Positions 8,656-38,908 of a stretch of DNA of 64,000 nt are shown piece after piece. Below the pieces are notes generated by a model that was not told the DNA's origin, made no database searches, and saw nothing but the letters and a program-made list of their open reading frames with translations. How positions within the stretch are numbered: the stretch's first letter is position 1; every line of letters begins with the position of its first letter. The DNA lies in assembly GCF_000426745.1 (NCBI RefSeq), contig NZ_KE384564.1, forward strand, positions 17,246 through 81,245, in the 5' to 3' direction. Position numbers and translations under genes: made by a program. The stretch comes from Veillonella montpellierensis DSM 17217. Its GTDB lineage: Bacteria; Bacillota; Negativicutes; Veillonellales; Veillonellaceae.

Positions 8656-8853
8656 GGTAGACACCTCTTAACCCCATTACTACGTATTAATTTATCATAT
8701 GCATAATCTACTGTTGGAGTATAAAACTTGTTCAACTAAGTAAAAGCAAACCATCGGCAAGACTTATATGCAGCTAACACGACCATGGCAATATCACTTA
8801 CCTATCCGTTTGCTCCTATTCATGCACATATATACTCTATAACTACGGTTTTC

Positions 8854-8882
8854 ATTATACAACCGTAAGAATTTTTATGCAA
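8854..8882 (-). promoter_or_regulatory. argG promoter
   Basis: On the minus strand TTGCAT, a 17-base spacer and a perfect TATAAT. This gives an untranslated leader of roughly 190 bases before the argG ATG. The -35 element overlaps the inverted repeat at 8865-8905. Confidence 0.8.
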
Positions 8883-8905
8883 GTATTTTTTATAAAAATT
8901 CTTAC
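8865..8905. promoter_or_regulatory. Candidate ArgR/AhrC operator over the argG promoter
   Basis: A perfect 14-bp inverted repeat (GTAAGAATTTTTAT and its complement) with a 13-base centre covers the -35 element of argG. On the minus strand one edge reads TGCATAAAAATTCTT, close to the ARG-box pattern TGNATWWWWATNCA. Position and composition suit an arginine repressor. No argR gene is in the window. Confidence 0.5.
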
Positions 8906-9564
8906 AATCACAATTTGATAAACTATCTACACCGCTTTGCACAGCAGATAATGATTAATTAGTTCGTCTTTTGTCAACTTTTACTCTACTACTTATATGT
9001 ATATTTCTTTATGCAGTCATTATAAATATACTCCATTCATATCACTTTCAAACGGCTACACTACATGTAATCAGTGTATCCATGTCATCAGATTGTACAT
9101 AATGCATAACATCGTTTCTATGAAAGCACGCCCCATACTACGATTCATCTATTCGAAACTCTATCTAATAAACATGACTTACCTCATAGTAGTCTGTGTT
9201 ACAGCAAAATGATGATGAAGTCATACTATCATCTACTAAGTGCCGCTGATTTTGCTGTGTCTATTCGTTTACGAGGTCTGCGGATTGCTAATTCTATGAT
9301 TCATTCACTATGAACGAGGCTTACGTAATTAGCCTACAAGCGATGTATACTGATTACAAAATAAATAACGTAGAAAAAGAAGTAAATCCTCTAGTTGTCA
9401 TTTAGCTATTTATTATGCATACTAATTGCCGAAATAGATAACTTAGAAAAAGTCCCTATATATCGGCAAACTTGTAGATTCTCATAGTCATATGCCTTTA
9501 TTCTCCAAGTGACGCATCATAATTTTCTATCTCCCCCTAGAGTCTTATACATCCAAGTTACAAA
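8906..9564. other. Gene-free spacer
   Basis: About 660 bp between the argG control region and a bidirectional terminator. The longest open frames (for example 8997-9212, +) lack a ribosome binding site and resemble no protein I recognise. No tRNA, repeat or transposon relic was recognised. It may be a degraded gene. Confidence 0.4.
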
Positions 9565-9600
9565 AAATACACTGAAAGAAATTATTCTTTCAGTGTATTT
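9565..9600 (-). terminator. Terminator downstream of the transglycosylase gene
   Basis: A perfect 16-bp stem (AAATACACTGAAAGAA) with a four-base ATTA loop. The A/T-rich stem base gives T-rich flanks on both strands, so it can act in both directions. It lies about 245 bp past the stop at 9846; 9601-9845 holds nothing else visible. Confidence 0.75.
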
Positions 9601-9845
9601 ATATTGATAGTAGTGTCTATACTTTGTATGCGTAAGCAATATCATAGCCTATACGCCAGAAACGTAGATGTGTCTACGGCACAAATCTAAGTCCTATTCT
9701 AGTTACCAATGATAAATGGATGCAAAGGATCCATCATCCATATCCTAATACGGCTTGTACTAGTACCTAGAATCATACCGCTCACCAGCATACATAGTTA
9801 GTTTGCATAAAGGAATACACCTGTCTACTATGAACGAATCTCTAG

Positions 9846-10907
9846 TTAATTTCCAATATACCCTGGCGCTCTATCACCGCGCTTAGCCTCTTCAGATGAT
9901 GCATTATCCTTTGTACGAACAGGATTGTCCGTATCCTTTGAGGAATTCTTATCAGCAGAGGACTTGTCTTTCTTTGGCGTTAACAATTCCGTCGCCTTGT
10001 GCCCCGTTACCGCTTCTACTACTGAATCAAGAGAAATGCTTGCTCCATCCTTAGGTAACACAGTATCATCAAATTCTGGCTCATCCTCCATACCAAGGGG
10101 ATCATGAAACGCTGATTTTGCTTCTGCTGGACTAATCATATCCTGTGCTACCATCTGCATAAGCACCGTATATTGTCGTTCCTTAGCGGCCTGATAGTTA
10201 TCTCGTGGATTATAATAGGTAGGCGCTTGTGGTAATCCCGCTAGCATAGCTGATTGCGCTAAAGATAGGCGAGCTGGCGTGGTGTCAAAATAGCCTTGTG
10301 CCGCCGCCTTAATCCCCGTATAATTATTACCAAAATAAACGGAGTTAAGATACATGGTAATAATCTCATCCTTTGAATAATGCCGTTCTACTAGAAAGGC
10401 TAACACCATTTCTTCTAATTTACGAGAAAATGTACGATGACTCGACAAAAAAATATTCTTTACCAGTTGCTGGGTAATCGTGCTACCCCCTTCAACCGTT
10501 TGTCCTGCCATGGTATTCATATATAGGGCACGTCCTATGCCTTGTACATCAATGGCGCCATGATCATAAAATCGTTTATCCTCTGCTGCTATTAACGCTT
10601 TCTTAGCGAAATCACTAATATTTCCCTCCCTCACTTGGTTATCCGGGCTAACACGTCGATTGATAGCTTCGGCTACAGCATCTTCAATGTGAAATAAACG
10701 ATACAAACGATCTAACACAGTCAATTGATCTTCCGAGGCCGTACTGCGCTCATCTTCAGGTAGTGTACTACTTGTTTCTTCCGTCTCTATAGTGTCCGTA
10801 TGGCTTGCTATATATTCATCATAGGCAATTAAACCGCCTACCACGAGAAATAAGGCAATAACCGCGCCAATCACTATACGACATATACATTTTATTAAAA
10901 TCATCAT
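9846..10907 (-). CDS. Membrane-anchored peptidoglycan glycosyltransferase (GT51), no transpeptidase domain
   Basis: Polymerises lipid II into glycan strands at the outer face of the cytoplasmic membrane. The 353 aa comprise an N-terminal membrane anchor (about residues 7-29), an acidic Ser/Thr/Glu linker, then a GT51 domain with EDKRFYDHGAID (catalytic Glu), GGSTITQQLVKN, and RKLEEMVLAFLVERHYSKDEI. Instead of a penicillin-binding transpeptidase domain it ends in a Lys/Ser/Asp-rich tail (about residues 290-353). It is therefore a monofunctional transglycosylase with an unusual tail, or a class A PBP that lost its second domain. The start ATG is one of two adjacent methionine codons, without a strong ribosome binding site. 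Confidence 0.85.
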   Translation of the reverse strand: MMILIKCICRIVIGAVIALFLVVGGLIAYDEYIASHTDTIETEETSSTLPEDERSTASEDQLTVLDRLYRLFHIEDAVAEAINRRVSPDNQVREGNISDFAKKALIAAEDKRFYDHGAIDVQGIGRALYMNTMAGQTVEGGSTITQQLVKNIFLSSHRTFSRKLEEMVLAFLVERHYSKDEIITMYLNSVYFGNNYTGIKAAAQGYFDTTPARLSLAQSAMLAGLPQAPTYYNPRDNYQAAKERQYTVLMQMVAQDMISPAEAKSAFHDPLGMEDEPEFDDTVLPKDGASISLDSVVEAVTGHKATELLTPKKDKSSADKNSSKDTDNPVRTKDNASSEEAKRGDRAPGYIGN

Positions 10908-12795: not shown

Positions 12796-12836
12796 GCTGA
12801 AAGAAATGACATGTCATTTCTTTCAGCTCTTTTTTA
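12796..12836. terminator. Bidirectional terminator
   Basis: A perfect 16-bp palindrome GCTGAAAGAAATGACA with its complement directly abutting. It is followed by TCTTTTTT on the plus strand and CTTTCT on the minus strand. It ends the citrate-locus transcripts (minus strand, stop at 12865). Confidence 0.8.
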
Positions 12837-12864: not shown

Positions 12865-14205
12865 TTAGATAGTAAATAGACCTAATAAGGCACCAAAAGT
12901 AAGAGAAATTAAAGAAAGTACAAATAATCGTGGTGCACAGAATTTTAACATGTCTTTAATTTCTACGCCTGCCAAGCCACAAGCCAAGAATGTTGTTGCC
13001 GCATGAGGTGTTACTAATACGCCATAGTTTTTGGAAATCAACATAGCCATCGCCATATTATGTCCATCAATACCAAATTGTTGTCCTACGCTAATAGCGA
13101 GTGGTACAAGACCAAAGAAGTAGGAGTCAGTACCTAATAACATACCGATTGGCACACCAAAAATACCGAATACAGTTTGCAAATGTCCACCAATAGCATC
13201 TGGCACTAAGCCGATTAACAAGGATGCCATGGATTTCATCATACCTGTTCCGTCTAAAACACCTAAGAAGATACCGGATGCCAATAGGATCATAGGCATG
13301 GTCAAGGCTGTATCTGCATGCATTTTAATCGCCTTGGATTGCGCTTTCGCCCCAGGGAAATTAATAATTAAAGCTATGGCCAACCCTAGCATAAATGCGC
13401 CATATAATGGTACTTTTGTAAAGCAAAGAAGGCCAATAACACCAAGGGTAATCAACAAGTTAATCCAGATTAACTTAGGTCGTTTCATAGCGTCAAATTC
13501 TGCTTGAGAATGACCTATATCACTATCCTCAACGGTGCTATCAAGTAAAGCAGCTTTACCAGTGGCATGTAGACCAGCACCGCGACGTTTTTCAACCCAT
13601 CCCATATAGGCCGCAAATAGAACGACAATGACAAGTCCTACGCCTTGTAACGGGATTAATTGTTGCCACAATGCATTTACATCTGCATTGAGTACAACAC
13701 CTGTACGCGCTACAGGACCGCCCCATGGCACCAAGTTCATAATACTCATCGCTGCCCCGATAATAACTAGCAACGTAACTGGTCGAATATGTAACTTCTT
13801 ATACACTGGCAACATGGCTGGAATGGTAATTAATAATGTAGAAGCTAAGGAACCATCCATATGCGCAATAACGGCAATCAAGGAAGTGGCAATCGTAACC
13901 GCCATAATATTATTGCCCGCTTTTTTGGATAGCCAATTAACCATAGGATCAAATAACCCTACATCCCCCATGAGAGCAAAGAATACGATTGAAAAGATAA
14001 ATAATACCGCTGTAGACCAAGTTTTGGATACGCCAGCTTTCACGAACGCAAAGATTTCGTGTGGTCCAAAACCTACAATCACAGCCGCTACAATAGGCAC
14101 AATAACAAAAATAGGAACAGGATTTGTTTTTGATTGAATCAACGCCCAAACGATGGTTACAATCATCAAAATTCCCATTACACCAAGAAGTGTTTCTCCA
14201 TACAT
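12865..14205 (-). CDS. CitMHS-family citrate (metal-citrate) transporter
   Basis: Inner-membrane carrier of 446 aa with about twelve hydrophobic spans. It has the CitMHS-type N-terminus (PVPIFVIVPIVAAVIVGFG), a conserved AHMDGS segment and a C-terminal LISKNYGVLVTPHAATTFL. The family takes up citrate as divalent-metal or proton complexes. The start is placed at the ATG at 14205, because GGAGG lies 8 bases upstream; an ATG five codons earlier overlaps that site. It lies 316 bp downstream of citF in the same direction, with a hairpin between. Together with the DASS transporter upstream it gives the locus two unrelated dicarboxylate/citrate transporters. Confidence 0.85.
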   Translation of the reverse strand: MYGETLLGVMGILMIVTIVWALIQSKTNPVPIFVIVPIVAAVIVGFGPHEIFAFVKAGVSKTWSTAVLFIFSIVFFALMGDVGLFDPMVNWLSKKAGNNIMAVTIATSLIAVIAHMDGSLASTLLITIPAMLPVYKKLHIRPVTLLVIIGAAMSIMNLVPWGGPVARTGVVLNADVNALWQQLIPLQGVGLVIVVLFAAYMGWVEKRRGAGLHATGKAALLDSTVEDSDIGHSQAEFDAMKRPKLIWINLLITLGVIGLLCFTKVPLYGAFMLGLAIALIINFPGAKAQSKAIKMHADTALTMPMILLASGIFLGVLDGTGMMKSMASLLIGLVPDAIGGHLQTVFGIFGVPIGMLLGTDSYFFGLVPLAISVGQQFGIDGHNMAMAMLISKNYGVLVTPHAATTFLACGLAGVEIKDMLKFCAPRLFVLSLISLTFGALLGLFTI

Positions 14206-14367
14206 AAGCAAATCCTCCATGTATATAATAACAAAAAGTGGGTTCTAACTTATAACAATGTGCTCATTGGTAACAACACAGAGAAAATAATAATTATACA
14301 TACAAGTACATGACTTACTAACACTCATTCGTTATACTTAGAAAACTAACTATAACATACTATTGAT

Positions 14368-14521: not shown

Positions 14522-16072
14522 CTATACTAATGGTTTGCGAACCACGTCAATCACAGAGCCGTCACGATATTCTACGACAGCTACAATATCTTCATCTTTA
14601 TCAGATACGGTAACTGATTCTGGTTTGCCGACTAAATCAAAAGCAATTTGTTGTAATTCTTCAATTGTATAAATTGGCAAGTTGCTATCTCTTAAGGCAT
14701 CGATTAAATCTTTGCGATTTGGATTGATAGCAATGCCTCGTTCTGTAACAATCACATCTACAGATGTACCTGGTGTGATAATGGTTTGTACGCGATCTAA
14801 AATCATTGGCAATCGACCACGTACTAATGGACATGTAATGACAGTGCATTTAGCGCCTGCTGCTGTATCACTATGGCCGCCAGAAGCACCCATCAACACG
14901 CCATTTGAGTCCGTCATGCAGTTGACATTGAAATCAACATCTACTTCTGTAGCACCCAAGAATACTACGTCAAGATAATTCGTCATGCAATCAGTCCAAG
15001 GATTAGCATACATGGACGCACTCATTTCAATATGATTAGGATTTGTATGTAATGAAGCTGCCGCTGTTATATCAAATGTTTGTGTATCATAGACTGCATC
15101 GATTAGATTGTCTTCTAACATGCCTGCCAAGATACCAGTAGCACCGCCAATACCAAAACCAGCTTTGATACCTTTCGCTTTCAATTTTTCACCGATGAAC
15201 TTAGCCACTGTCAATGGAGCACCGCCAGCGCCTAATTGGAATGCAAAGCCTTCTTTAATAATCCCTGCTTCATCTAAAAAGGCTGCCGCCATTTCAGCGA
15301 TTTTAATTTGTATTGGGTTTTTAGTAAATCCTACTGCCCCTGACGCAATGCCTTCTGGGTCCCCAATGGATTCTACTTCTACGATATAATCTACATCGGT
15401 TTGTGGTACAGAGTAAGGATATACATAATCTACTAAATTATCAGTAATAGCCACGGTTACATCTGCATAATGTGAATCTACCATAGCATAGCCTAAGGCA
15501 CCACATGCTGATTTACCTTCAGAACCAGTAAAATTACCGCGACGGTCACAAGTAGGAGCCCCCATAAATGCTACGTCAATATGAACTTCTCCAGATTCAA
15601 TAGCTCTTGCACGGCCACCATGAGAACGAATGACTACAGGACGTTTTAATACGCCTGGATTGTTAGTAAGAAATTTACCAAGGGCAGAACGCAAGCCTGA
15701 TGTTTCAATGGCTGTAACGGTACCATCTTTAATCATATCCACTAAGAAGTCATGGCAAGGGCTTAAGGAGCTAGATGCAACGGTAATGTCTTTAATGCCT
15801 TTCGCTTGAATGCGTTCCATCACCATTTGGCATATATAGTCGCCATTACGTAAATGATGGTGAAAGGACACTGTCATACCATCTTTTAAGCCTGCTTTTT
15901 CAATTGCTTCATCAATGGAAGCTACAATTTTATTAGGCTGTTGTCCATACGCACGTACTGTACGGCCTACACGATGTGTGTTTGGTGTAATCGCAAATTC
16001 GCCTTGATATACTTCTTTACCGCTAAGGTACGGCAAGTTTGTTGGGATGTCACGACCTGCTTTATTTAACAT
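14522..16072 (-). CDS. citF: Citrate lyase alpha subunit (citrate:acetyl-ACP transferase)
   Basis: Swaps acetyl for citryl on the carrier in anaerobic citrate cleavage. The chosen start (ATG at 16072, 516 aa) has GGAG 9 bases upstream; an ATG at 16090 lacks one. Strongly conserved CitF segments are MTVSFHHHLRNGDY, TVASSSLSPCHDFLV, IRSHGGRARAIESGE, AFMGAPTCDRRGN, NPNHIEMSASMYANP, LMGASGGHSDTAAGAK and PLVRGRLPMILDRV. It overlaps the citE end by 11 bp. The order in transcription is citD-citE-citF. citC, citX and citG are not in the window. The adjacent CitD lacks the usual prosthetic-group serine, so the natural acyl donor is uncertain. Confidence 0.95.
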   Translation of the reverse strand: MLNKAGRDIPTNLPYLSGKEVYQGEFAITPNTHRVGRTVRAYGQQPNKIVASIDEAIEKAGLKDGMTVSFHHHLRNGDYICQMVMERIQAKGIKDITVASSSLSPCHDFLVDMIKDGTVTAIETSGLRSALGKFLTNNPGVLKRPVVIRSHGGRARAIESGEVHIDVAFMGAPTCDRRGNFTGSEGKSACGALGYAMVDSHYADVTVAITDNLVDYVYPYSVPQTDVDYIVEVESIGDPEGIASGAVGFTKNPIQIKIAEMAAAFLDEAGIIKEGFAFQLGAGGAPLTVAKFIGEKLKAKGIKAGFGIGGATGILAGMLEDNLIDAVYDTQTFDITAAASLHTNPNHIEMSASMYANPWTDCMTNYLDVVFLGATEVDVDFNVNCMTDSNGVLMGASGGHSDTAAGAKCTVITCPLVRGRLPMILDRVQTIITPGTSVDVIVTERGIAINPNRKDLIDALRDSNLPIYTIEELQQIAFDLVGKPESVTVSDKDEDIVAVVEYRDGSVIDVVRKPLV

Positions 16073-16994
16073 TAATTTCAGCTCCTTCATCTACTTCTAC
16101 TTTAATACCTGCTGCCCGTGCTTTATCAATAATGCGTTGTGCACGGACTACGATAGGTCCATCAATCATTTTTCCGTCTACTGCAATAACGCCTAAATTA
16201 TTTTTCAATGCATTCGCATAGCTATTCAATACTTTAACAGAATGAGCAATTTCTTTTTCATCTGGTGTAAATACTTGATGAGCCAATTTAATTTGGCTAG
16301 GATGAATACACGATTTTCCATCAAAGCCAAGGGCTTTAATATAGGTTACTTCTTCTACAAAGCCTTCAGGATCTTTCACATCAGAGAAGACTGTATCTAC
16401 GCAACGGATACCCGCTTCACGGGCAGCCAATAAAATCGATTGACGCGCAAACGCCAATTCTACGGCTGGTTTCGATTTACCTGTACGAAGATCAGCGCGA
16501 TAATCTTCTGCACCAAGAGCAATGCCTACCACGCGAGGGCCATGGCAAATTTCTCGCACATTATATAAACCTTTTACGGATTCAATGGCAACGATGATAT
16601 TAATAGTGCCTTCTTCCCATCCATTTTCTTTTTCCACTTCTTCAATCTTACGAGCTACTAATTCCACTTCTGATACGTCTTCTGTTTTTGGTAAGCGAAT
16701 CAAATCAGGTTTAGCAGGAATAATTACTTCCATATCTTTAATACCATATGGTGTTTGTGTAGGATGATTGATACGAACCACTGTTTCTGCACGGAATTTC
16801 ATAGACTTTAATGCTTCTGCGGTCATTAATCGAGCCGTATCTTTTTCTGTAACAGGAATGGAATCTTCTATATCAAACATCAAACTATCTGAACCGTGAA
16901 TATCCGCACTGTTAATCATTTTAGGTGAATTGCCCGGTACGAACATCATCGACCGAGAAATACGAGCTTTTGCTGCTTCTGTTAATGCACTCAT
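16062..16994 (-). CDS. citE: Citrate lyase beta subunit (citryl-ACP lyase)
   Basis: Splits the citryl thioester to oxaloacetate and the acetyl thioester. It is a 310 aa TIM-barrel protein of the CitE/HpcH family. RSMMFVPGNSPKM starts the barrel. LMFDIEDSIP and VAIESVKGLYNVREI carry the conserved acidic Mg2+ and active-site residues, and GIALGAEDYRADL and CIHPSQI are conserved family blocks. The ATG overlaps the citD stop (TAATG) and the gene end overlaps citF. Stand-alone CitE-like proteins act on CoA esters, which is relevant given the odd CitD next to it. Confidence 0.95.
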   Translation of the reverse strand: MSALTEAAKARISRSMMFVPGNSPKMINSADIHGSDSLMFDIEDSIPVTEKDTARLMTAEALKSMKFRAETVVRINHPTQTPYGIKDMEVIIPAKPDLIRLPKTEDVSEVELVARKIEEVEKENGWEEGTINIIVAIESVKGLYNVREICHGPRVVGIALGAEDYRADLRTGKSKPAVELAFARQSILLAAREAGIRCVDTVFSDVKDPEGFVEEVTYIKALGFDGKSCIHPSQIKLAHQVFTPDEKEIAHSVKVLNSYANALKNNLGVIAVDGKMIDGPIVVRAQRIIDKARAAGIKVEVDEGAEINVK

Positions 16995-17263
16995 TATTCT
17001 TGGCTCCCCCTTTCTAAGGCACCCATAACACGGGCTTTAATCGCATAGTCCCAAGCTGCTTTATCATCACAAATTACTTTCACACCGTCAAAGCCTTGTT
17101 CTTTCACTGTGTTAATAATCAATTCTTCAATATGTTTGCCATATTGACGCATCACTTTTGAAGTTAATTCCACTTCAATACCTGCACTAATTGGTTCCAC
17201 TGTAACGAGAACATCTTGCTTTTCATCAAAACCAGCCGTAGCAGTTTTCACTAAATGCTTCAT
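16994..17263 (-). CDS. citD: Citrate lyase gamma subunit (acyl carrier protein), attachment serine absent
   Basis: Small carrier subunit of 89 aa (known CitD about 97). The body matches the family: VTVEPISAGIEVELTSKVMRQYGKHIEE, ICDDKAAWDYAIKARVMGAL. In characterised CitD the phosphoribosyl-dephospho-CoA arm is on Ser14 of AGTLESSD. Here the matching stretch is AGFDEKQD, with Lys15 at the serine position and no nearby serine; Thr7 and Thr9 are the nearest hydroxyl residues. I re-read the codons (GGT TTT GAT GAA AAG CAA GAT) and see no frameshift. A good ribosome binding site (AGAAAGGA) precedes it and it is coupled to citE. Either the carrier has lost its arm or it is modified differently. Confidence 0.85.
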   Translation of the reverse strand: MKHLVKTATAGFDEKQDVLVTVEPISAGIEVELTSKVMRQYGKHIEELIINTVKEQGFDGVKVICDDKAAWDYAIKARVMGALERGSQE

Positions 17264-17372: not shown

Positions 17373-18779
17373 TTAACCGATATAGCCTGTAAGGGACCAC
17401 CATAACGGGCTAATCGTAAAATCAATAATCAAATACACAATAACCAGTAACGCTCCCACAGTCCACCAAGTTTTTACGGTGTTATATCCAGCGGAGAAAA
17501 TAATTGGTCCTGGGGACGCACCATAGTGTGTTAAGGAGCCGCCAAACGCATTCGTCGTCAACATTAATAAGCCGAATAGCGCAGGATCTACGCCTGTCGC
17601 CTTACCCACTGTCAAGAATACGGGCATCATAGATGCGATATAGGCTGTACTGGAGGCAAATAAATACCGAATAGCGCAGCTGATAACCGCCAATATAACT
17701 GCCACCATAAGTGGGGAAAGGTCGAATGCCATATGACTTTCCATGAATATAGCCAACCAGTCAAAGAATTTCGCTTTTGATAAGGCTGTCGAAATACCGA
17801 GTAAGCCACCAAACCAAATGAATGTGTTCCACACCGCTTTGGTTTCTACAATATCATTCCATGTAATAATCTTAGTCAATAAGGTGAATGCCATCGCTAC
17901 CAGTGCTACTGCAGTGGCATTTACGGCAATACCGATAGATGGCAAGGCCCAACCGATAAGGGCTAAGACGAAAATCACACAGAGGATTTTTTCACTACTC
18001 TTCATATCGCCTAGTTCTGCTAACCCCTTAGCGGCTAACGCTTTATTATCAATGGTTGTCACTGTAGGTCGATCCACATAGTACGCAATCAACGGTGTGA
18101 TGATTAGCATTAACAAACCAGGAACGATCATGGCTAATGCCCATTCACCCCACGTCAATGAGATGCCTAAAATTTTATTCACAAAGTCTAAGGCAAGTAG
18201 ATTGGGCGCCATGGCGGTCATGAAAATAAAGGATGTTATTTTTGTAACAAAATAACCATTCATCAAAATATAGGAACCACCTTTACGGGCTGTTTCACCA
18301 GGAAATGAGTGAATAGATTCTGCAATGGATAAATTGATTGGATATACAATGCCTGCTGCACGAGCCGTATTCGATGGTGTAGCTGGAGAAAGTATAAAAT
18401 CAATCAATGCCGTTACATATCCCAAGCGCAATACGCTGCTACCAAATAGACTCACTAAATGATACGCCAATCGATGTCCCAGTCCCGTCTTACCAAACGC
18501 AACACTTAGCGAAAAGGCTGCAATAATCATCCATAAGGATGTGGAGCCATAGCCAGCCAATAATATTTTGGCATTATCCATAAAAATAGAAGATGCGGCA
18601 ATAATGGCTAAAAATATAATCTGTACGGAATAGGGTTTTAACATAAGCCCTACAATCGCTGATAAATAAAAACCTAATAGGCGCCAACCTTCTTGACTCA
18701 ACCCGTCTGGGGCCCCTGAAAACCATGTATATAATGGAATGGCTATCATGATAGCTAATTTCCAAATTTTGTTATTCAT
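17373..18779 (-). CDS. citT: DASS-family citrate/dicarboxylate antiporter (CitT-like)
   Basis: Inner-membrane carrier of 468 aa with about twelve spans, of the divalent anion:Na+ symporter/CitT family. It shows the family signature segment SPATPSNTARAAGIVYPI and a second-half counterpart near TTNAFGGSLTHYGASPGPIIFSAGY. Probable job: citrate uptake against succinate, or dicarboxylate exchange. The start at 18779 is chosen for GAAGGGA just upstream; the longer frame has none. It is the first gene of the citrate locus, behind a LysR gene and a palindromic candidate operator. E. coli citT likewise sits with citrate lyase genes. Substrate inferred from context. Confidence 0.85.
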   Translation of the reverse strand: MNNKIWKLAIMIAIPLYTWFSGAPDGLSQEGWRLLGFYLSAIVGLMLKPYSVQIIFLAIIAASSIFMDNAKILLAGYGSTSLWMIIAAFSLSVAFGKTGLGHRLAYHLVSLFGSSVLRLGYVTALIDFILSPATPSNTARAAGIVYPINLSIAESIHSFPGETARKGGSYILMNGYFVTKITSFIFMTAMAPNLLALDFVNKILGISLTWGEWALAMIVPGLLMLIITPLIAYYVDRPTVTTIDNKALAAKGLAELGDMKSSEKILCVIFVLALIGWALPSIGIAVNATAVALVAMAFTLLTKIITWNDIVETKAVWNTFIWFGGLLGISTALSKAKFFDWLAIFMESHMAFDLSPLMVAVILAVISCAIRYLFASSTAYIASMMPVFLTVGKATGVDPALFGLLMLTTNAFGGSLTHYGASPGPIIFSAGYNTVKTWWTVGALLVIVYLIIDFTISPLWWSLTGYIG

Positions 18780-18931
18780 ACAAATCCCTTCTATCGACTT
18801 ACTACTCTGTATATATTCCACCTAGAATCTATACTATACAAAACTACACAACATATCTATTTCTATACACTAAGTCTATAACAATATCCTTATAATATGT
18901 GTATATGGAATACATATCATTCCATACATTC

Positions 18932-19096: not shown

Positions 19097-20002
19097 TCAT
19101 TCTTTGTAAAAGAACGATGTGTCTACTACTTCGTGTTCCTTATAATACGCTGTCACAAATTCTATAAAAATTTTAGCAGCTGATAAATTTAATATGCTTT
19201 CATTATAAAACATCTTTGTGCTTCTTGTCACGAAATTTCCCTGTTTATCACATACGGGGCGCACCACAATATCTCGATCCTTGCAAGAACCAAGTCCCAT
19301 ATAAGTAAGGATTGACCAGCCTAGTCCTTCCCGTACAAAGTGGCGACAGGTTACCATGGAATTCACTTCCATCCCTAATGTTAACATTTGTGGAATATGT
19401 TCTCCACACCAAGTTTCAATCACATTGGCTACGGTTGGATCTGTTTGATATCGAATATATGGAATGTCCCCTAATTCGTGAAATGGAACGGGGTCTTTAT
19501 AGACAACACAGTACGGTTCCTCTAATAAGGTAGTAGCTTGACCTACACCATTATAGTCACCTCGTGCAAAGGCAATCATGCATTCGCCAGAATTAAAAGA
19601 TTTAATTGCTTGGTGGCTAAATCCTGTTTTTACATGCACCGTAATGTCTGGATACTGTTCCCTAAACAGTCGTAACAAGCGCGGCAATTCATAATCAGCA
19701 AAATTAATGGAAGAGGAAATTTTTAAGGTGCCACTAATTTTGCCCGATACGGAGCTTAATTTTTGTCGCAATGACTCTTGTTCGCCTAGCATGTGGCGGC
19801 AATATTCATAAAACACTTCGCCCTCTGGCGTAAGGATAATCCCTTCATTGGTTCGCAATAATAAAGATATATCTAACTCACGTTCCATATGACGCAATCG
19901 ATAGCTAAGAGCCGGTTGCGATATAAACAATTTACCAGCTGCTTTCGTAATATTCCCTTCTTCAACTACCGTAGTAAACGTTTTCCATTCTCTTTCATCC
20001 AT
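19097..20002 (-). CDS. LysR-family transcriptional regulator (candidate regulator of the citrate locus)
   Basis: DNA-binding regulator of 301 aa. The N-terminal winged helix-turn-helix (about residues 1-60) includes EEGNITKAAGKLFISQPALSYRLRHME. The C-terminal two-lobed effector domain (from about residue 90) begins GTLKISSSINFADYELPRLLRLF. It lies 55 bp after pyk, same strand, and just upstream of the citT-type gene, from which a terminator separates it. The palindrome at 18981-18999 is its likely target. A small-molecule inducer such as citrate is a guess from location. The name citR would be speculative. Confidence 0.88.
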   Translation of the reverse strand: MDEREWKTFTTVVEEGNITKAAGKLFISQPALSYRLRHMERELDISLLLRTNEGIILTPEGEVFYEYCRHMLGEQESLRQKLSSVSGKISGTLKISSSINFADYELPRLLRLFREQYPDITVHVKTGFSHQAIKSFNSGECMIAFARGDYNGVGQATTLLEEPYCVVYKDPVPFHELGDIPYIRYQTDPTVANVIETWCGEHIPQMLTLGMEVNSMVTCRHFVREGLGWSILTYMGLGSCKDRDIVVRPVCDKQGNFVTRSTKMFYNESILNLSAAKIFIEFVTAYYKEHEVVDTSFFYKE

Positions 20003-32882: not shown

Positions 32883-34190
32883 TTACATGTTCTTCTGTTG
32901 TGCTATGGCACAGAACGCCTCCTTAGCAATTTGAAGTGTAGTCTTAATATCTGACTCACGATGCGATAGGGACATGAAATTACTTTCAAATTGACTTGGC
33001 GCATAATAAATGCCATGTGACAAATTATAGTGGAAAAATTGTTTAAATTGTTCCATGTTACATGCATTTGCCTCTTCAAAATTAGTGACTGGTTTCTCTG
33101 AGAAAAATAGAGTAAACATGGATCCCACATGTTGCACTTGTACTGGCACTTCTGCTGCATGTGCCGCATCTAACAAACCTTCACAGAGCATATCTGTCGC
33201 CGTTTCCACTTGTTTAAATACAGTTGGGTTGCGTTGCAAAATAGATAAGGTTGCTAATCCAGCTGTCATGGCTAATGGGTTACCACTCAATGTGCCCGCT
33301 TGATAAATAGGGCCACTTGGTGCGACTTGACTCATATATTCTGCTTTACCGCCGAAGACTGCCATAGGCATTCCACCGCCTACAATTTTGCCTAAGCAAG
33401 TTAAATCTGGATCAATATGATAATACTTTTGGGCCCCTCCGGCACTAGCACGGAACCCACACATCACTTCATCAAAAATAAGTAGGGCGCCTGCGTTACG
33501 CGTTTCTTCACGCAAGCATTCTAAAAAGCCTGGTACTGGTGGTACACATCCCATATTACCTGCCACTGGTTCTACAATAACACCAGCTATATCATGGCCT
33601 TTTTCTTTAAATAAAGCGCGTACCCTTTCTATATCATTGTAGGGAATGGTAATGGTATTGGCCGCCACGCCTTGTGGCACACCGGGACTATCGGGTACGC
33701 CGAAGGTAGCCAATCCAGACCCAGCTTTTACTAATAAGGAATCACTATGTCCATGATAGCAACCGATGAATTTCACAATGCAATCACGACCTGTCACGCC
33801 ACGAGCTACGCGTATAGCACTCATAGTGGCTTCTGTACCAGAGTTAACCATGCGCATCATTTCCATAGACGGCATAAATGCTTGGATCTTTTTCGCCACT
33901 TCTGTTTCTAACAACGTAGGCGCGCCATAGCTAGTGCCACGAGGGATAGCTTCCTGTAAGGCCGCCACCACTTCTGGATGGGCATGACCTAAAATCATAG
34001 GTCCCCAAGATAAAACATAGTCAATGTATTCATTATTGTCGATGTCGTAAATGCGACTGCCCGAGGCAGCACTGATAAACGGTGGTGTACTTCCTACGCT
34101 ACGATAGGAGCGAACTGGACTATTAACACCGCCTGGCATATATTCTTTTGCTTCTGTAAAAGCTTGTTTAGATTTGTCTAGTGTCCACAT
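32883..34190 (-). CDS. hemL: Glutamate-1-semialdehyde 2,1-aminomutase
   Basis: PLP enzyme converting glutamate-1-semialdehyde to 5-aminolevulinate. It has 435 aa. GGVNSPVRSYRSVGSTPPF at the N-terminus, VNSGTEATMSAIRVARG, CYHGHSDSLLVKAGSG, LIFDEVMCGFR and DLTCLGKIVGGGMPMAVFGG with the PLP-binding lysine in GKIVGGG are all present. It is the last gene of the tetrapyrrole operon, 9 bp after hemB. Confidence 0.97.
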   Translation of the reverse strand: MWTLDKSKQAFTEAKEYMPGGVNSPVRSYRSVGSTPPFISAASGSRIYDIDNNEYIDYVLSWGPMILGHAHPEVVAALQEAIPRGTSYGAPTLLETEVAKKIQAFMPSMEMMRMVNSGTEATMSAIRVARGVTGRDCIVKFIGCYHGHSDSLLVKAGSGLATFGVPDSPGVPQGVAANTITIPYNDIERVRALFKEKGHDIAGVIVEPVAGNMGCVPPVPGFLECLREETRNAGALLIFDEVMCGFRASAGGAQKYYHIDPDLTCLGKIVGGGMPMAVFGGKAEYMSQVAPSGPIYQAGTLSGNPLAMTAGLATLSILQRNPTVFKQVETATDMLCEGLLDAAHAAEVPVQVQHVGSMFTLFFSEKPVTNFEEANACNMEQFKQFFHYNLSHGIYYAPSQFESNFMSLSHRESDIKTTLQIAKEAFCAIAQQKNM

Positions 34191-34199
34191 ACGATCCCC

Positions 34200-35174
34200 T
34201 TATGCTTGTAGCCAACGTGCTACATCTAATGCATGATATGTAATAATAATCTTAGCGCCAGCTCGTTTCATCGATAACAAGGTTTCTAATACCAATTGTT
34301 TCTCATTGATGAGATTGGCCTGTGCTGCTGTTTTCACCATGGCATATTCACCGCTTACATTATATACGGCTAGTGGGTAATTATACCGATCCCTGGCTTC
34401 ACGAACCACATCTAAATAGGATAGAGCCGGTTTAATCATGATGATATCAGCTCCTTCAGCGATATCGCCTTCAATTTCACGCATCGCTTCATAACGATTG
34501 GCTGGATCCATTTGATAGGACTTGCGATCGCCAAATTGCGGTGCCGAATGAACCGCATCTCTAAAAGGTCCATAATAGGCAGAAGCATATTTCGCCGCAT
34601 AGCTCATAATCGATACATTCTTAAAGTTCGCCGCATCTAATCCTTCTCGAATCGCTGCCACACGACCATCCATCATATCTGATGGTGCTACAATATGTGC
34701 CCCGGCCCGTGCTTGACTGACCGCTACTTTTACCAATAAAGGCAATGTTTCATCATTTAAAATTTCATGATGTTCAATGCAACCACAATGGCCATGGTTC
34801 GTATATTGGCATAAACATACATCACCTACGACAATCAACTCTGGCACTTCTTGTCGAATTGCTTGAATCGCTTGTTGTACTGGTTGTGACATATCCCATG
34901 CAGAAGAGCCCAATTCATCTTTATAGGTTGGTTCTCCGAATATTTCTACTCCTCGAATACCTAACTGATGTGCCTCTTTTGCCACTTTTACAGCCTCATC
35001 TACCGACAAGTGATATTGGCCTGGTAAAGAGGAGATTTCTTCGCGAATACCTGTACCAGCAACCACAAAAATAGGATAGATTAAATCAGTAACATCTAAT
35101 GTAGTTTCTCTTACTAAATCTCTCATCGCTGCAGTTGTACGCAGACGACGGGGACGATAGGTTAAATCGATCAT
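34200..35174 (-). CDS. hemB: Delta-aminolevulinate dehydratase (porphobilinogen synthase)
   Basis: Condenses two 5-aminolevulinates to porphobilinogen. It has 324 aa from the ATG at 35174, which has AAGGAG 8 bases upstream; an in-frame GTG three codons earlier abuts that site. [15 protein letters not shown] supplies three cysteines for the catalytic zinc type. The Schiff-base lysines are in [17 protein letters not shown] and [10 protein letters not shown]. It starts right after the cobA-hemD stop and is co-transcribed with it. Confidence 0.97.
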
Positions 35175-35179
35175 AGCTA

Positions 35180-36697
35180 TCACTCCTTATTGCCTGTAGC
35201 ATGTGCTACAAGCGCTGCTACTAAACCATCAATCGTATATTCTTCACTAATAACAGTAGGCTCTAATCCTGCTTTCACCGCTGTAGCTGCCGTAATCGGC
35301 CCAATGCAAGCGATATGAGTATCGCTCAATAGCGACGCGTCGCCTACTAAGGCCAATGTGTTTGTCACTGTAGATGAACTAGTAAATGTAATATAATCTA
35401 CGGTTTTGCTAGCTAACGCCTCTTGTAACACTTCACGTTGACTCATATCTTGTACGGTTTCATATAAACGAATCACATCTACATCGATGCCACTAGCGCG
35501 TAAGCCATCGGAAATGACCGATCGGGCCACTTTAGGTTGTACTAACAATACTTTATCCCTATCACCTACCACAGCTTGTAAGGTTTCTACCACTGATTCA
35601 GCTTGATAATTAAGAGGTATACAATCTGGACGAATGCCATAGGCATGTAACGCTTTTCCTGTCGCTACACCGATGGCACAGATTTTATGATTACCTAGAG
35701 CCCGTGTATCTAACCCTCTATCGGCTAAGGCTTTGAAAAAGTAGCGTACCCCTTCGGCAGATGTAAACGTAATATACGAATAAGCCCGTAAATTTTCTAA
35801 CATTGCGCGCGTTACTTCATCCAATGCCAACGCCTGTGTCTTAATCGCCGCCGCCTCAATTACATTGGCCCCTAAGTTTAATAACGCTTCCGACAAAGCA
35901 CTGGCCTGACGTCTTGCGCGAGTGACTAACACGGTCTTACCAAATAGCGGTTTATTATCAAACCACCGCAATTGGTCACGTAAGTTTACTACATCGCCAA
36001 CGACGATGATTGCTGGTGATGTGAGTCCCGCTTTCGCCACATCATCTACCACATGTTCCAAAGTAGACACCAAGGTTTCTTGAATTGGTTTCGTACCCCA
36101 TCGCACTAAGGCTACTGGTGTAGACGGTGCGCGACCATGCGCCATAAGTTCTTTCACAATCATCGGTAAATGTCCAATTCCCATGACAAAGGTAAGTGTA
36201 TCCACAGCGGTCGCAAGACCCTTCCAATGCATGCCCGATTCTCGTTTTGTAGGATCTTCATGACCAGTAATCACTGCAAAAGACGTAGCAACTGCACGAT
36301 GTGTTACAGGAATCCCTGCATAGGCCGGTGCAGAAATAGCGGAAGTAACGCCCGGTACAAATTCAAAGGCTACGCCAGCCTCATGTAAGGCTAAGGCTTC
36401 CTCGCCGCCACGACCAAATACAAGAGGATCGCCCCCTTTTAAGCGAGCTACCACCTTGCCTTCAAGTCCTTTTTTTACCAATAATTCATTGATTTCATAT
36501 TGATGCATAGTATGGTCCCGACATTGTTTCCCTGCATAAATGATCTCAGCATCGTCTCTAGCCCATTGTAATAATTTACTATCTGCCAGATAATCATAGA
36601 CGATAACATCTGCTCGTTCGATGCATTCTTTTCCTTTAACGGTAATGAGCTTGCTGTCTCCAGGACCTGCACCAATTAAATATACTATGCCTGCCAT
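35180..36697 (-). CDS. cobA-hemD: Fused uroporphyrinogen-III C-methyltransferase / uroporphyrinogen-III synthase
   Basis: Bifunctional protein of 505 aa. Residues 1-245 are a SUMT (CobA) methyltransferase: [56 protein letters not shown]. Residues about 250-505 are a HemD domain: [19 protein letters not shown] and [13 protein letters not shown]. HemD closes hydroxymethylbilane to uroporphyrinogen III, and CobA methylates it to precorrin-2, so the fusion channels flux toward siroheme/cobalamin. The fusion is known in clostridia and Negativicutes. It overlaps hemC by one base. Confidence 0.95.
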
Positions 36698-37635
36698 TAT
36701 TTTATGATCCCTTCTTTAATCAATGTTTCTATAATCTGCTTGCCCCCCTCTTCATACAATGCTTTTGCCAAGTTTTTACCCAACATATTCGCTTTGCAAA
36801 GAGGGCCAGAAATACTGCCTTCATATACATCTTTACCATCAATGGAAGCAATTAATCCTTGTAGTGTTAATTGATGATTATCAATCATCCCATGAACGCC
36901 CATCGGCACTTGACAATTGCCTTGTAATTGCCGCAAGAAACTGCGTTCGCCTTCAACAGCACATCGCGTTTCCTCATGATTAATCGGTACTAACATAGAA
37001 AGCATTTCTTCATCATCGTCTCGACATTCGATTGCTAATGCGCCTTGTCCTACAGCGGGAATCATATCATCAACGCTAAACACTTGGGTAATCAAATGAT
37101 CGAGTCCCAATCGTTTTAAACCAGCTTGTGCTAATACGATGGCATCAAACTGTTCATCCTCTAACTTGCGAAGTCGCGTCTGCACATTACCACGCAACAC
37201 ATGAATATCTAAATCAGGCCGTGCATGCAACAATTGTGCTTGACGTCTCAAACTACTAGTGCCTACTTTAGCCCCTTGTGGCAACTGATCAAGCGTTTTA
37301 TACACCGGTGCCACCAACGCATCATAAGGCGCTTCTCGTTTGCTAATCGCCCCTAAGATCAATCCATCTGGTAACTCTGTAGGCATATCTTTCAAACTAT
37401 GTACAGCTATATCGATGTCTCCCCTATGCATAGCTGCCTCTAATTCAGCCGTAAACAAACCTTTACCGCCAATATCCGCCAACGGTTTTTCTAAAATGGC
37501 ATCGCCCTTCGTCGTAAAATGTACCAATTCAATCGTACAAGTTGGATATAGCCTCTGTAATTCATCGCGAATATACGTAGCTTGCCATACAGCCAACGCA
37601 CTTTGTCGTGTACCAATTTTAATACTATTTCTCAT
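36697..37635 (-). CDS. hemC: Porphobilinogen deaminase (hydroxymethylbilane synthase)
   Basis: Polymerises four porphobilinogens to hydroxymethylbilane on a covalently held dipyrromethane cofactor. It has 312 aa. IKIGTRQSALAVWQA at the N-terminus, HSLKDMPTELP, GTSSLRRQAQLL and LRGNVQTRLRKL are the substrate-binding arginine motifs. The cofactor cysteine is in RQLQGNCQVPMGVHG. It overlaps hemA by 11 bp and cobA-hemD by 1 bp. Confidence 0.97.
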   Translation of the reverse strand: MRNSIKIGTRQSALAVWQATYIRDELQRLYPTCTIELVHFTTKGDAILEKPLADIGGKGLFTAELEAAMHRGDIDIAVHSLKDMPTELPDGLILGAISKREAPYDALVAPVYKTLDQLPQGAKVGTSSLRRQAQLLHARPDLDIHVLRGNVQTRLRKLEDEQFDAIVLAQAGLKRLGLDHLITQVFSVDDMIPAVGQGALAIECRDDDEEMLSMLVPINHEETRCAVEGERSFLRQLQGNCQVPMGVHGMIDNHQLTLQGLIASIDGKDVYEGSISGPLCKANMLGKNLAKALYEEGGKQIIETLIKEGIIK

Positions 37636-38908
37636 GGTCAGTTTCCACCTTTAAGTTAAATATGTCCCTAAACAATTCCCAATATAGTCCTTCCTCTTCG
37701 GTACCAGCAATCTCGCTAAGCCGAATCATTGGTTCTCGTAATAGTTTGCGAACAATCATGCGAGACATGGAGTCCATCATTTTTATGTCGTGCTCTGTAG
37801 CATGAGGCAACTTCACTAAGGCACGATGCAACTCACGACGACGAATCGTTTCCCCTTTATCGGACAGTTGCACCATCATGGGACGGACTGACAAATAATT
37901 TAACTTTTCATTAATTTCATCCATCGCCAATTGAATCATTGGCTCCGCCTTCTTAGCCTCTGCTTGACGAATGTGCTTATTGGCCTCTACCACGCTTTCC
38001 AAGGCGTCAATATTAAACAAGTAAATACCGTCCATTTGTGCCACCATCGGGTCTATATCACGTGGCACGGCAATGTCGATCATCACGATCGGCTTGCCAT
38101 GGCGTGCTTTTATAATATCGCGAGCATGCTCTGCTTTTACAATGTAATGTGGCGATCCAGTGGAGGTAATAATAATATCTGCCAACTTAGCCTGCTCTAC
38201 AAAATCGTCTAGTTTAATGGCTTGGCCGTTGAATCGTCGAGCCAACAGTTCCGCTTTAGAAAAGGTCCTGTTCGACACAAAGATCGTTTTGACCCCTTTC
38301 GCCTGCAAATGTGTGGCCGTCAGCTCACTCATTTTGCCTGCCCCTAAAATTAATACGGTTGCCTCTGAAAGTGGTTTATCCAAACTATCTTCCGCTAAAT
38401 TAACCGCCGTATAACTAACGGATACAGGGGTATTGGCAATACCCGTTTGGGTGCGAATCAGTTTGCCCACATGGATGGCTTTTTGAAATAAAATATTAAA
38501 AACCGCTCCCGTAAAGCCCGCTGTGGCAGCAGATAAATAGGCCGTTTTTAATTGGCTCAAAATTTGCCCTTCTCCTAATACCAAGGAATCAAGGCTAGCC
38601 GCTACGCGAAATAAATGTTCAATACAATCTTCCCCTTCTAATAAGAAGAATGCCTCTTCATCAATGGAATCTGTATGCTTTAACTCTTTCATTAAGGTCA
38701 GCATATACTGATGTGGATCGTTTACATCCTCTAGTACGGCGTAAATTTCTGTACGGTTACAGGTCGATAACACAACGCATTCGCTGATATTATCATAATG
38801 ATATACCTCATCGAGGGCTGTACTTACTTCACTTTTATCAAAAGAGAATTGTTCTCGCACATTGATGGGGGCCGATTTATGATTTAGTCCTAATACCACT
38901 AATTGCAT
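37625..38908 (-). CDS. hemA: Glutamyl-tRNA reductase
   Basis: First committed step of C5-pathway tetrapyrrole synthesis: Glu-tRNA to glutamate-1-semialdehyde. It has 427 aa. The nucleophilic cysteine is in VVLSTCNRTEIYAV (near residue 48). DSLVLGEGQILSQLK is a catalytic-domain signature. A Rossmann NADPH domain (ATVLILGAGKMSELTATHL) and a C-terminal dimerisation helix follow. It overlaps the upstream precorrin-2 dehydrogenase by about 30 bp. Confidence 0.97.
   Translation of the reverse strand: MQLVVLGLNHKSAPINVREQFSFDKSEVSTALDEVYHYDNISECVVLSTCNRTEIYAVLEDVNDPHQYMLTLMKELKHTDSIDEEAFFLLEGEDCIEHLFRVAASLDSLVLGEGQILSQLKTAYLSAATAGFTGAVFNILFQKAIHVGKLIRTQTGIANTPVSVSYTAVNLAEDSLDKPLSEATVLILGAGKMSELTATHLQAKGVKTIFVSNRTFSKAELLARRFNGQAIKLDDFVEQAKLADIIITSTGSPHYIVKAEHARDIIKARHGKPIVMIDIAVPRDIDPMVAQMDGIYLFNIDALESVVEANKHIRQAEAKKAEPMIQLAMDEINEKLNYLSVRPMMVQLSDKGETIRRRELHRALVKLPHATEHDIKMMDSMSRMIVRKLLREPMIRLSEIAGTEEEGLYWELFRDIFNLKVETDHEK

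Follow-up and report, generated by a model that had tools for sequence, protein, structure and literature searches.

In the window, a 64,000-nucleotide stretch of the genome of Veillonella montpellierensis, genes for the three subunits of a citrate lyase lie together in one operon on the reverse strand, as is canonical for this enzyme. The gene order is citD (16994–17263; 89 amino acids), citE (16062–16994; 310 amino acids, starting within a TAATG overlap with the citD stop), citF (14522–16090; 522 amino acids) and a gene for a CitMHS-family citrate:proton symporter (12865–14220). A stem-loop search located a terminator-like structure 3′ of the symporter gene (12796–12827, reverse strand), which may mark the end of the operon. 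Upstream of citD, in the same orientation, is a gene for a DASS-family anion transporter (17373–18821); genes for pyruvate kinase and a LysR-family regulator (19097–20002, reverse strand) also lie on the upstream side. The transporters and the regulator were assigned using family profiles; the best model for the regulator is CcpC, with a score below the CcpC cut-off. Elsewhere in the window (32883–38908, reverse strand) there is a compact, ordinary-looking cluster of haem-precursor genes that encodes glutamyl-tRNA reductase, porphobilinogen deaminase, a fused methylase/HemD, ALAD and a class-III aminotransferase.

The CitD protein (ORF 16994–17263, reverse strand), which begins MKHLVKTATAGFDEKQDVLVTV, exceeds the curated score thresholds of the models for the citrate lyase acyl carrier protein (PF06857, 74 bits; TIGR01608, citD; NF009726). 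In the CitD alignment, AGFDEKQD (17213–17236, reverse strand) stands in for the AGTLESSD motif, and Lys15 (codon AAG, 17219–17221, reverse strand) takes the place of the arm-bearing serine of canonical citrate lyases. This column is serine in every ordinary CitD that we gathered; Ser14 of Klebsiella CitD aligns with Lys15. Residues 1–25 contain no serine, and all of the serines of CitD are outside the attachment loop, including the conserved Ser35, a serine that most serine-type CitDs share. The motif AGFDEK[NQ]D is found in all 28 Veillonellaceae genomes, with the lysine encoded by AAA or AAG. The presence of lysine in 28 of 28 genomes, through two codons, excludes a sequencing error, an explanation that the initial annotation had allowed for, and bears out its reading of lysine at the attachment position with no serine nearby. 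Strong purifying selection acts on the gene (median dN/dS of 0.088). When all columns of CitD, CitE and CitF are compared, just one, column 15 of CitD, has the same residue in all four serine-less lineages and never in a serine-type row.

CitE and CitF are both intact, as the initial annotation had stated, judging from family profiles (CitF reaches 665 bits against a TIGR01584 cut-off of 501) and from the retention of residues that are invariant across each subunit family, which in CitE are E43, D44, R74, E138 and D278. CitE falls below the TIGR01588 cut-off, but so does a canonical CitE (L120), and we therefore did not count this score as evidence of divergence. At residues 231–234 (16293–16304, reverse strand), CitE aligns as H-P-S-Q, compared with N-P-R-Q in ordinary CitE. 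The H-P-x-Q form (x not Arg) is present in 25 of 29 serine-less rows. Among the 31 serine rows with CitX it occurs in only 2, which both fall in the Veillonella-type clade. The motif is common to free-CoA lyases of known structure (5ugr, 5vxc, 3qll and 4l9y) and also occurs in 1sgj. We treat it as supporting rather than decisive because it could be ancestral in the CitE superfamily and because one lysine lineage (L245–L247, lineage iii below) retains N-P-R-Q. Of the seven serine rows that lack CitX, three carry H-P-[SK]-Q in CitE, which hints that the arm has been abandoned there too.

Canonical citrate lyases are accompanied by citX and citG. Neither CitX nor CitG had a match in the V. montpellierensis genome (1.87 Mb, 99.98% complete), and finding both would have spoken against the carrier independence that the initial annotation proposed. 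The same searches detected CitX in 78 and CitG in 89 of 300 Negativicutes genomes, and matched controls and relatives strongly. The CitC profile gave only a weak match in V. montpellierensis, possibly to another nucleotidyltransferase (E = 1.9e-5, compared with ~1e-69 for true CitC); Veillonella genomes likewise have weak matches (E = 1e-5 to 1e-9). citX and citG, and probably a true citC, are missing from 26 of the 28 Veillonellaceae genomes. The only two with CitX, CitG and a strong CitC (E ~1e-69), V. seminalis (G055) and its sister (G104), carry a second operon with an ordinary AGTLESSD citD, and citC, citX and citG lie a few kilobases away. These genomes are a natural control within the family, in which the serine and the arm machinery were gained or lost jointly. 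The comparison among Negativicutes that the initial annotation had suggested thus gave the outcome it predicted. Several genomes of two families in the same order (f3 and f4) have a strong CitC (E ~1e-69) and no CitD-family match.

The carrier profile of the Veillonellaceae found closer relatives in other Negativicutes, and the wider search covered 398 Bacillota genomes. Among 29 serine-less rows, 22 come from genomes without any serine-type carrier, and CitX is missing for all 22; the other 7 share their genome with a serine-type carrier, which explains CitX there. Of the 37 serine rows, 30 have CitX in their genome, whereas PF03802 CitX is lacking for 7 (G246, 63% complete; G186 and G192, fragmentary; G642, G421, G634 and G430), so that the absence of CitX alone is no proof of the absence of the arm. 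A transferase of another kind could exist in some of these genomes. An underpowered sign test on independent pairs found agreement in about four of five and disagreement in none (p = 0.125). We rejected genomes with CitG and without CitX as counter-examples, as their carriers are mostly those of malonate decarboxylase (GVTGSGD) and do not belong to citrate lyase; such MdcC-type rows form a group separate from the CitD rows.

Some of the carriers in this wider set have features of their own. In families f38 (L252 and L257) and f111 (L253), CitD bears the serine in genomes without PF03802 CitX, and these species may have another transferase or represent early loss of the arm. The f111 locus adjoins genes for methylaspartate mutase and an ammonia-lyase and is perhaps a citramalate lyase. 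The f38 CitE ORFs are short (239 amino acids), with N-G-R-Q or D-G-R-Q, and in L250, a sister to these rows, alanine stands at the attachment position. Proline occupies this position (AGTMEPSD) in a CitD from a fragmentary genome without CitX (G186; L209, 4200–4523).

Lysine at position 15 occurs outside as well as inside the Veillonellaceae, on at least four separate branches of the CitF tree: the Veillonella-type clade (i), a clade of f18 and Veillonella sp. R32 (ii; L119 and L206–L208), a group linked to TctABC tricarboxylate transporters, isocitrate dehydrogenase, PrpF and aconitase (iii; L245–L247) and a single genome (iv; G499, L249), the placement of which is less sure because of its long branch. 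A single origin of all lysine carriers was rejected on this tree (log-likelihood 343 lower; AU test, p = 6.65e-5); by this phylogeny, the exchange of serine for lysine is an event that happened several times independently. The Veillonella-type clade also includes serine (L112 and L117) and threonine (L110 and L116) at position 15, and lysine is therefore not strictly required. The change is family-wide and recurrent and is accompanied by the CitE motif change and by CitD/CitE fusions, all of which go beyond the initial annotation. A search of an open-access library for earlier accounts of a serine-less CitD returned none. These proteins still go by the name of acyl carrier proteins in the family models and, in consequence, probably in automatic annotation.

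Within lineage ii, Veillonella sp. R32 has a second, distantly related lysine-type citDEF operon near a transposase gene (L119:4932–10081), with a DASS transporter that is split across two overlapping ORFs (8667–9599 and 9542–10081). The f18 operons have a small gene directly 3′ of citF (L206:7567–8148 and L207:7682–8242), which we considered as a hidden CitX and rejected, as it encodes an HD-domain protein of about 190 amino acids.

Six Veillonellaceae genomes of the V. ratti/seminalis/intestinalis group, several of them from named Veillonella species, encode CitD fused in frame to the N terminus of CitE, with some 20–30 linker residues between the two; at loci L065–L069 the fused ORFs have 422–433 amino acids. 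The opposite order, with CitD at the C terminus of CitE, is found in G499 (L249:2008–3327; 440 amino acids), and the two arrangements are independent in-frame events. Among serine-type CitDs for which the neighbourhood was read, there was no fusion. Structure prediction for the V. ratti fusion gave a confident model (pLDDT of 86, pTM of 0.85), in which the CitE part most resembles CoA-bound malyl-CoA lyase and CLYBL. A CitD-profile search of the sequences of known structures returned no match. Among the structural matches listed for the AlphaFold model of CitD (pLDDT of 96), the only full-length one of similar size is MdcC of malonate decarboxylase (5vit_C; TM-scores of 0.80/0.74).

The loss of the attachment serine, and with it of the genes for making and attaching the arm, indicates that the Veillonella-type citrate lyase has very probably lost its covalent arm, and makes the use of free coenzyme A probable. 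The reading that we favour, and consider likely, is of a citrate lyase that acts on free acetyl-CoA and citryl-CoA and in which CitD is a structural subunit. CitF would move CoA from free acetyl-CoA onto citrate to give citryl-CoA and acetate, and CitE would split free citryl-CoA into oxaloacetate and acetyl-CoA; because this acetyl-CoA returns to the cycle, CoA would be a diffusible catalytic cofactor. CitD would carry no thiol and would be retained to hold CitE and CitF together. With the arm gone, its biosynthesis (citG), its transferase (citX) and its acetylating ligase (citC) would be unnecessary, and so dispensable and lost. By the established biochemistry of these enzymes, CitF and CitE are able to act on free CoA esters, so that removal of the arm would need no new chemistry; for the separated subunits, PMC3832036 cites Dimroth and Eggerer (1975). 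Characterized stand-alone CitE-like enzymes use free acyl-CoA as a substrate (PMC3832036), and in malonate decarboxylase the decarboxylase subunits take malonyl-CoA instead of the carrier (PMC5534430). Of the two interpretations in the initial annotation, carrier independence with a structural CitD is the better supported, the use of free CoA being an inference, and a group attached at Thr7 or Thr9 is rejected because these positions vary in close relatives (position 7 can be A; position 9 can be Q, M or S).

A more speculative extension is that arm-bearing lyases repeatedly became free-CoA enzymes by way of the serine-to-lysine exchange, with the CitD lysine gripping the 3′-phosphate of CoA noncovalently. 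This phosphate is present in free CoA and absent from the arm, and the lysine at the loop tip may help to hold it. In malonate decarboxylase, the serine at the loop tip is about 10 ångströms from the ribose of a modelled CoA (PMC5534430); by analogy, a lysine there could be within reach of the 3′-phosphate of free CoA.

Gene context bears on the substrate. The operons of relatives within the Veillonella-type clade have neighbours that encode PEP carboxykinase, a protein resembling oxaloacetate decarboxylase, a 2-hydroxycarboxylate transporter (2HCT) and a citrate transporter (CitMHS), which makes a role of citrate in and oxaloacetate out likely. Citrate lyase is among the differentially expressed genes in a study of V. 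dispar (PMC10100942), consistent with an expressed enzyme. An arm-free lyase with another substrate, such as citramalate, could be suggested by the homology of citramalate lyases, which are annotated as citrate lyase (PMC4682846), and by the HMGL-like and CoA-transferase III genes next to the lineage ii operons; the neighbours of the Veillonella-type relatives, and the pyruvate kinase and CcpC-like regulator genes near the V. montpellierensis operon, make this improbable.

The fate of the carrier itself could be read in other ways. Serine-bearing CitDs in genomes without PF03802 CitX leave room for transferases of an unrecognized kind, and some Ser/Thr residues of CitD, such as Ser35, are conserved, so the usual or a related arm might sit on another residue. 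We consider this quite unlikely: CitG, which makes the precursor, is missing as well, Thr7 and Thr9 vary, and Ser35 is shared with serine-type carriers and lies away from the loop. Lys15 might instead bear a different covalent group (lipoyl-, biotinyl- or acyl-like), which would fit its invariance in the Veillonellaceae and its convergence in four lineages; the occurrence of threonine or serine in close relatives (L108 with lysine and L110 with threonine have nearly identical CitE and CitF), a predicted fold that is like that of MdcC and unlike biotinyl and lipoyl domains, and the fact that no attachment gene was seen adjoining serine-less operons make such a carrier highly doubtful. The joint loss of serine and modification genes would also be expected of a decaying remnant without lyase activity, a reading that is scarcely credible given retention in all 28 genomes under the purifying selection noted above, intact catalytic residues and an operon maintained across genera.

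The swinging arm is a textbook trait of bacterial citrate lyase. The Veillonellaceae, which are common bacteria of the mouth and gut, and several other Bacillota lineages appear to manage without it, with selection still maintaining a carrier protein that has lost its cofactor. A serine-less citDEF would be a simple citrate-cleaving enzyme for the laboratory, with three genes and no modification machinery.

The Veillonella type resembles the ATP-independent citrate lyase of Klebsiella and E. coli (EC 4.1.3.6) in its citD-citE-citF order, nearby citrate transporter and catalytic residues; it differs in lacking the attachment serine, citX, citG and probably a true citC, in having H-P-x-Q rather than N-P-R-Q in CitE and, in some genomes, in a CitD–CitE fusion. 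It shares the CitE fold and H-P-x-Q with the free-CoA enzymes malyl-CoA lyase, human CLYBL and RipC, whereas these have no CitD partner and the V. montpellierensis CitE, far from standing alone, is encoded in the same operon as CitD and CitF. The citramalate lyase of Clostridium tetanomorphum is homologous and also has three subunits, but is reported to cluster with CitCXG (PMC4682846) and acts on a different substrate. MdcC of malonate decarboxylase has the fold of CitD and an attachment residue at the same loop tip, but carries its arm on Ser25 and works with MdcB, MdcG and other partner enzymes; the combination of an SGD-serine carrier with mdcB and mdcG is not seen here, and the protein matches citD models instead. 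Another parallel to the proposed route through free citryl-CoA is that of the Aquificaceae (PMC5441870), in which a citryl-CoA lyase follows a citryl-CoA synthetase. There, citryl-CoA is made by the synthetase and not by CoA transfer, and no CitD or CitF is known to take part.
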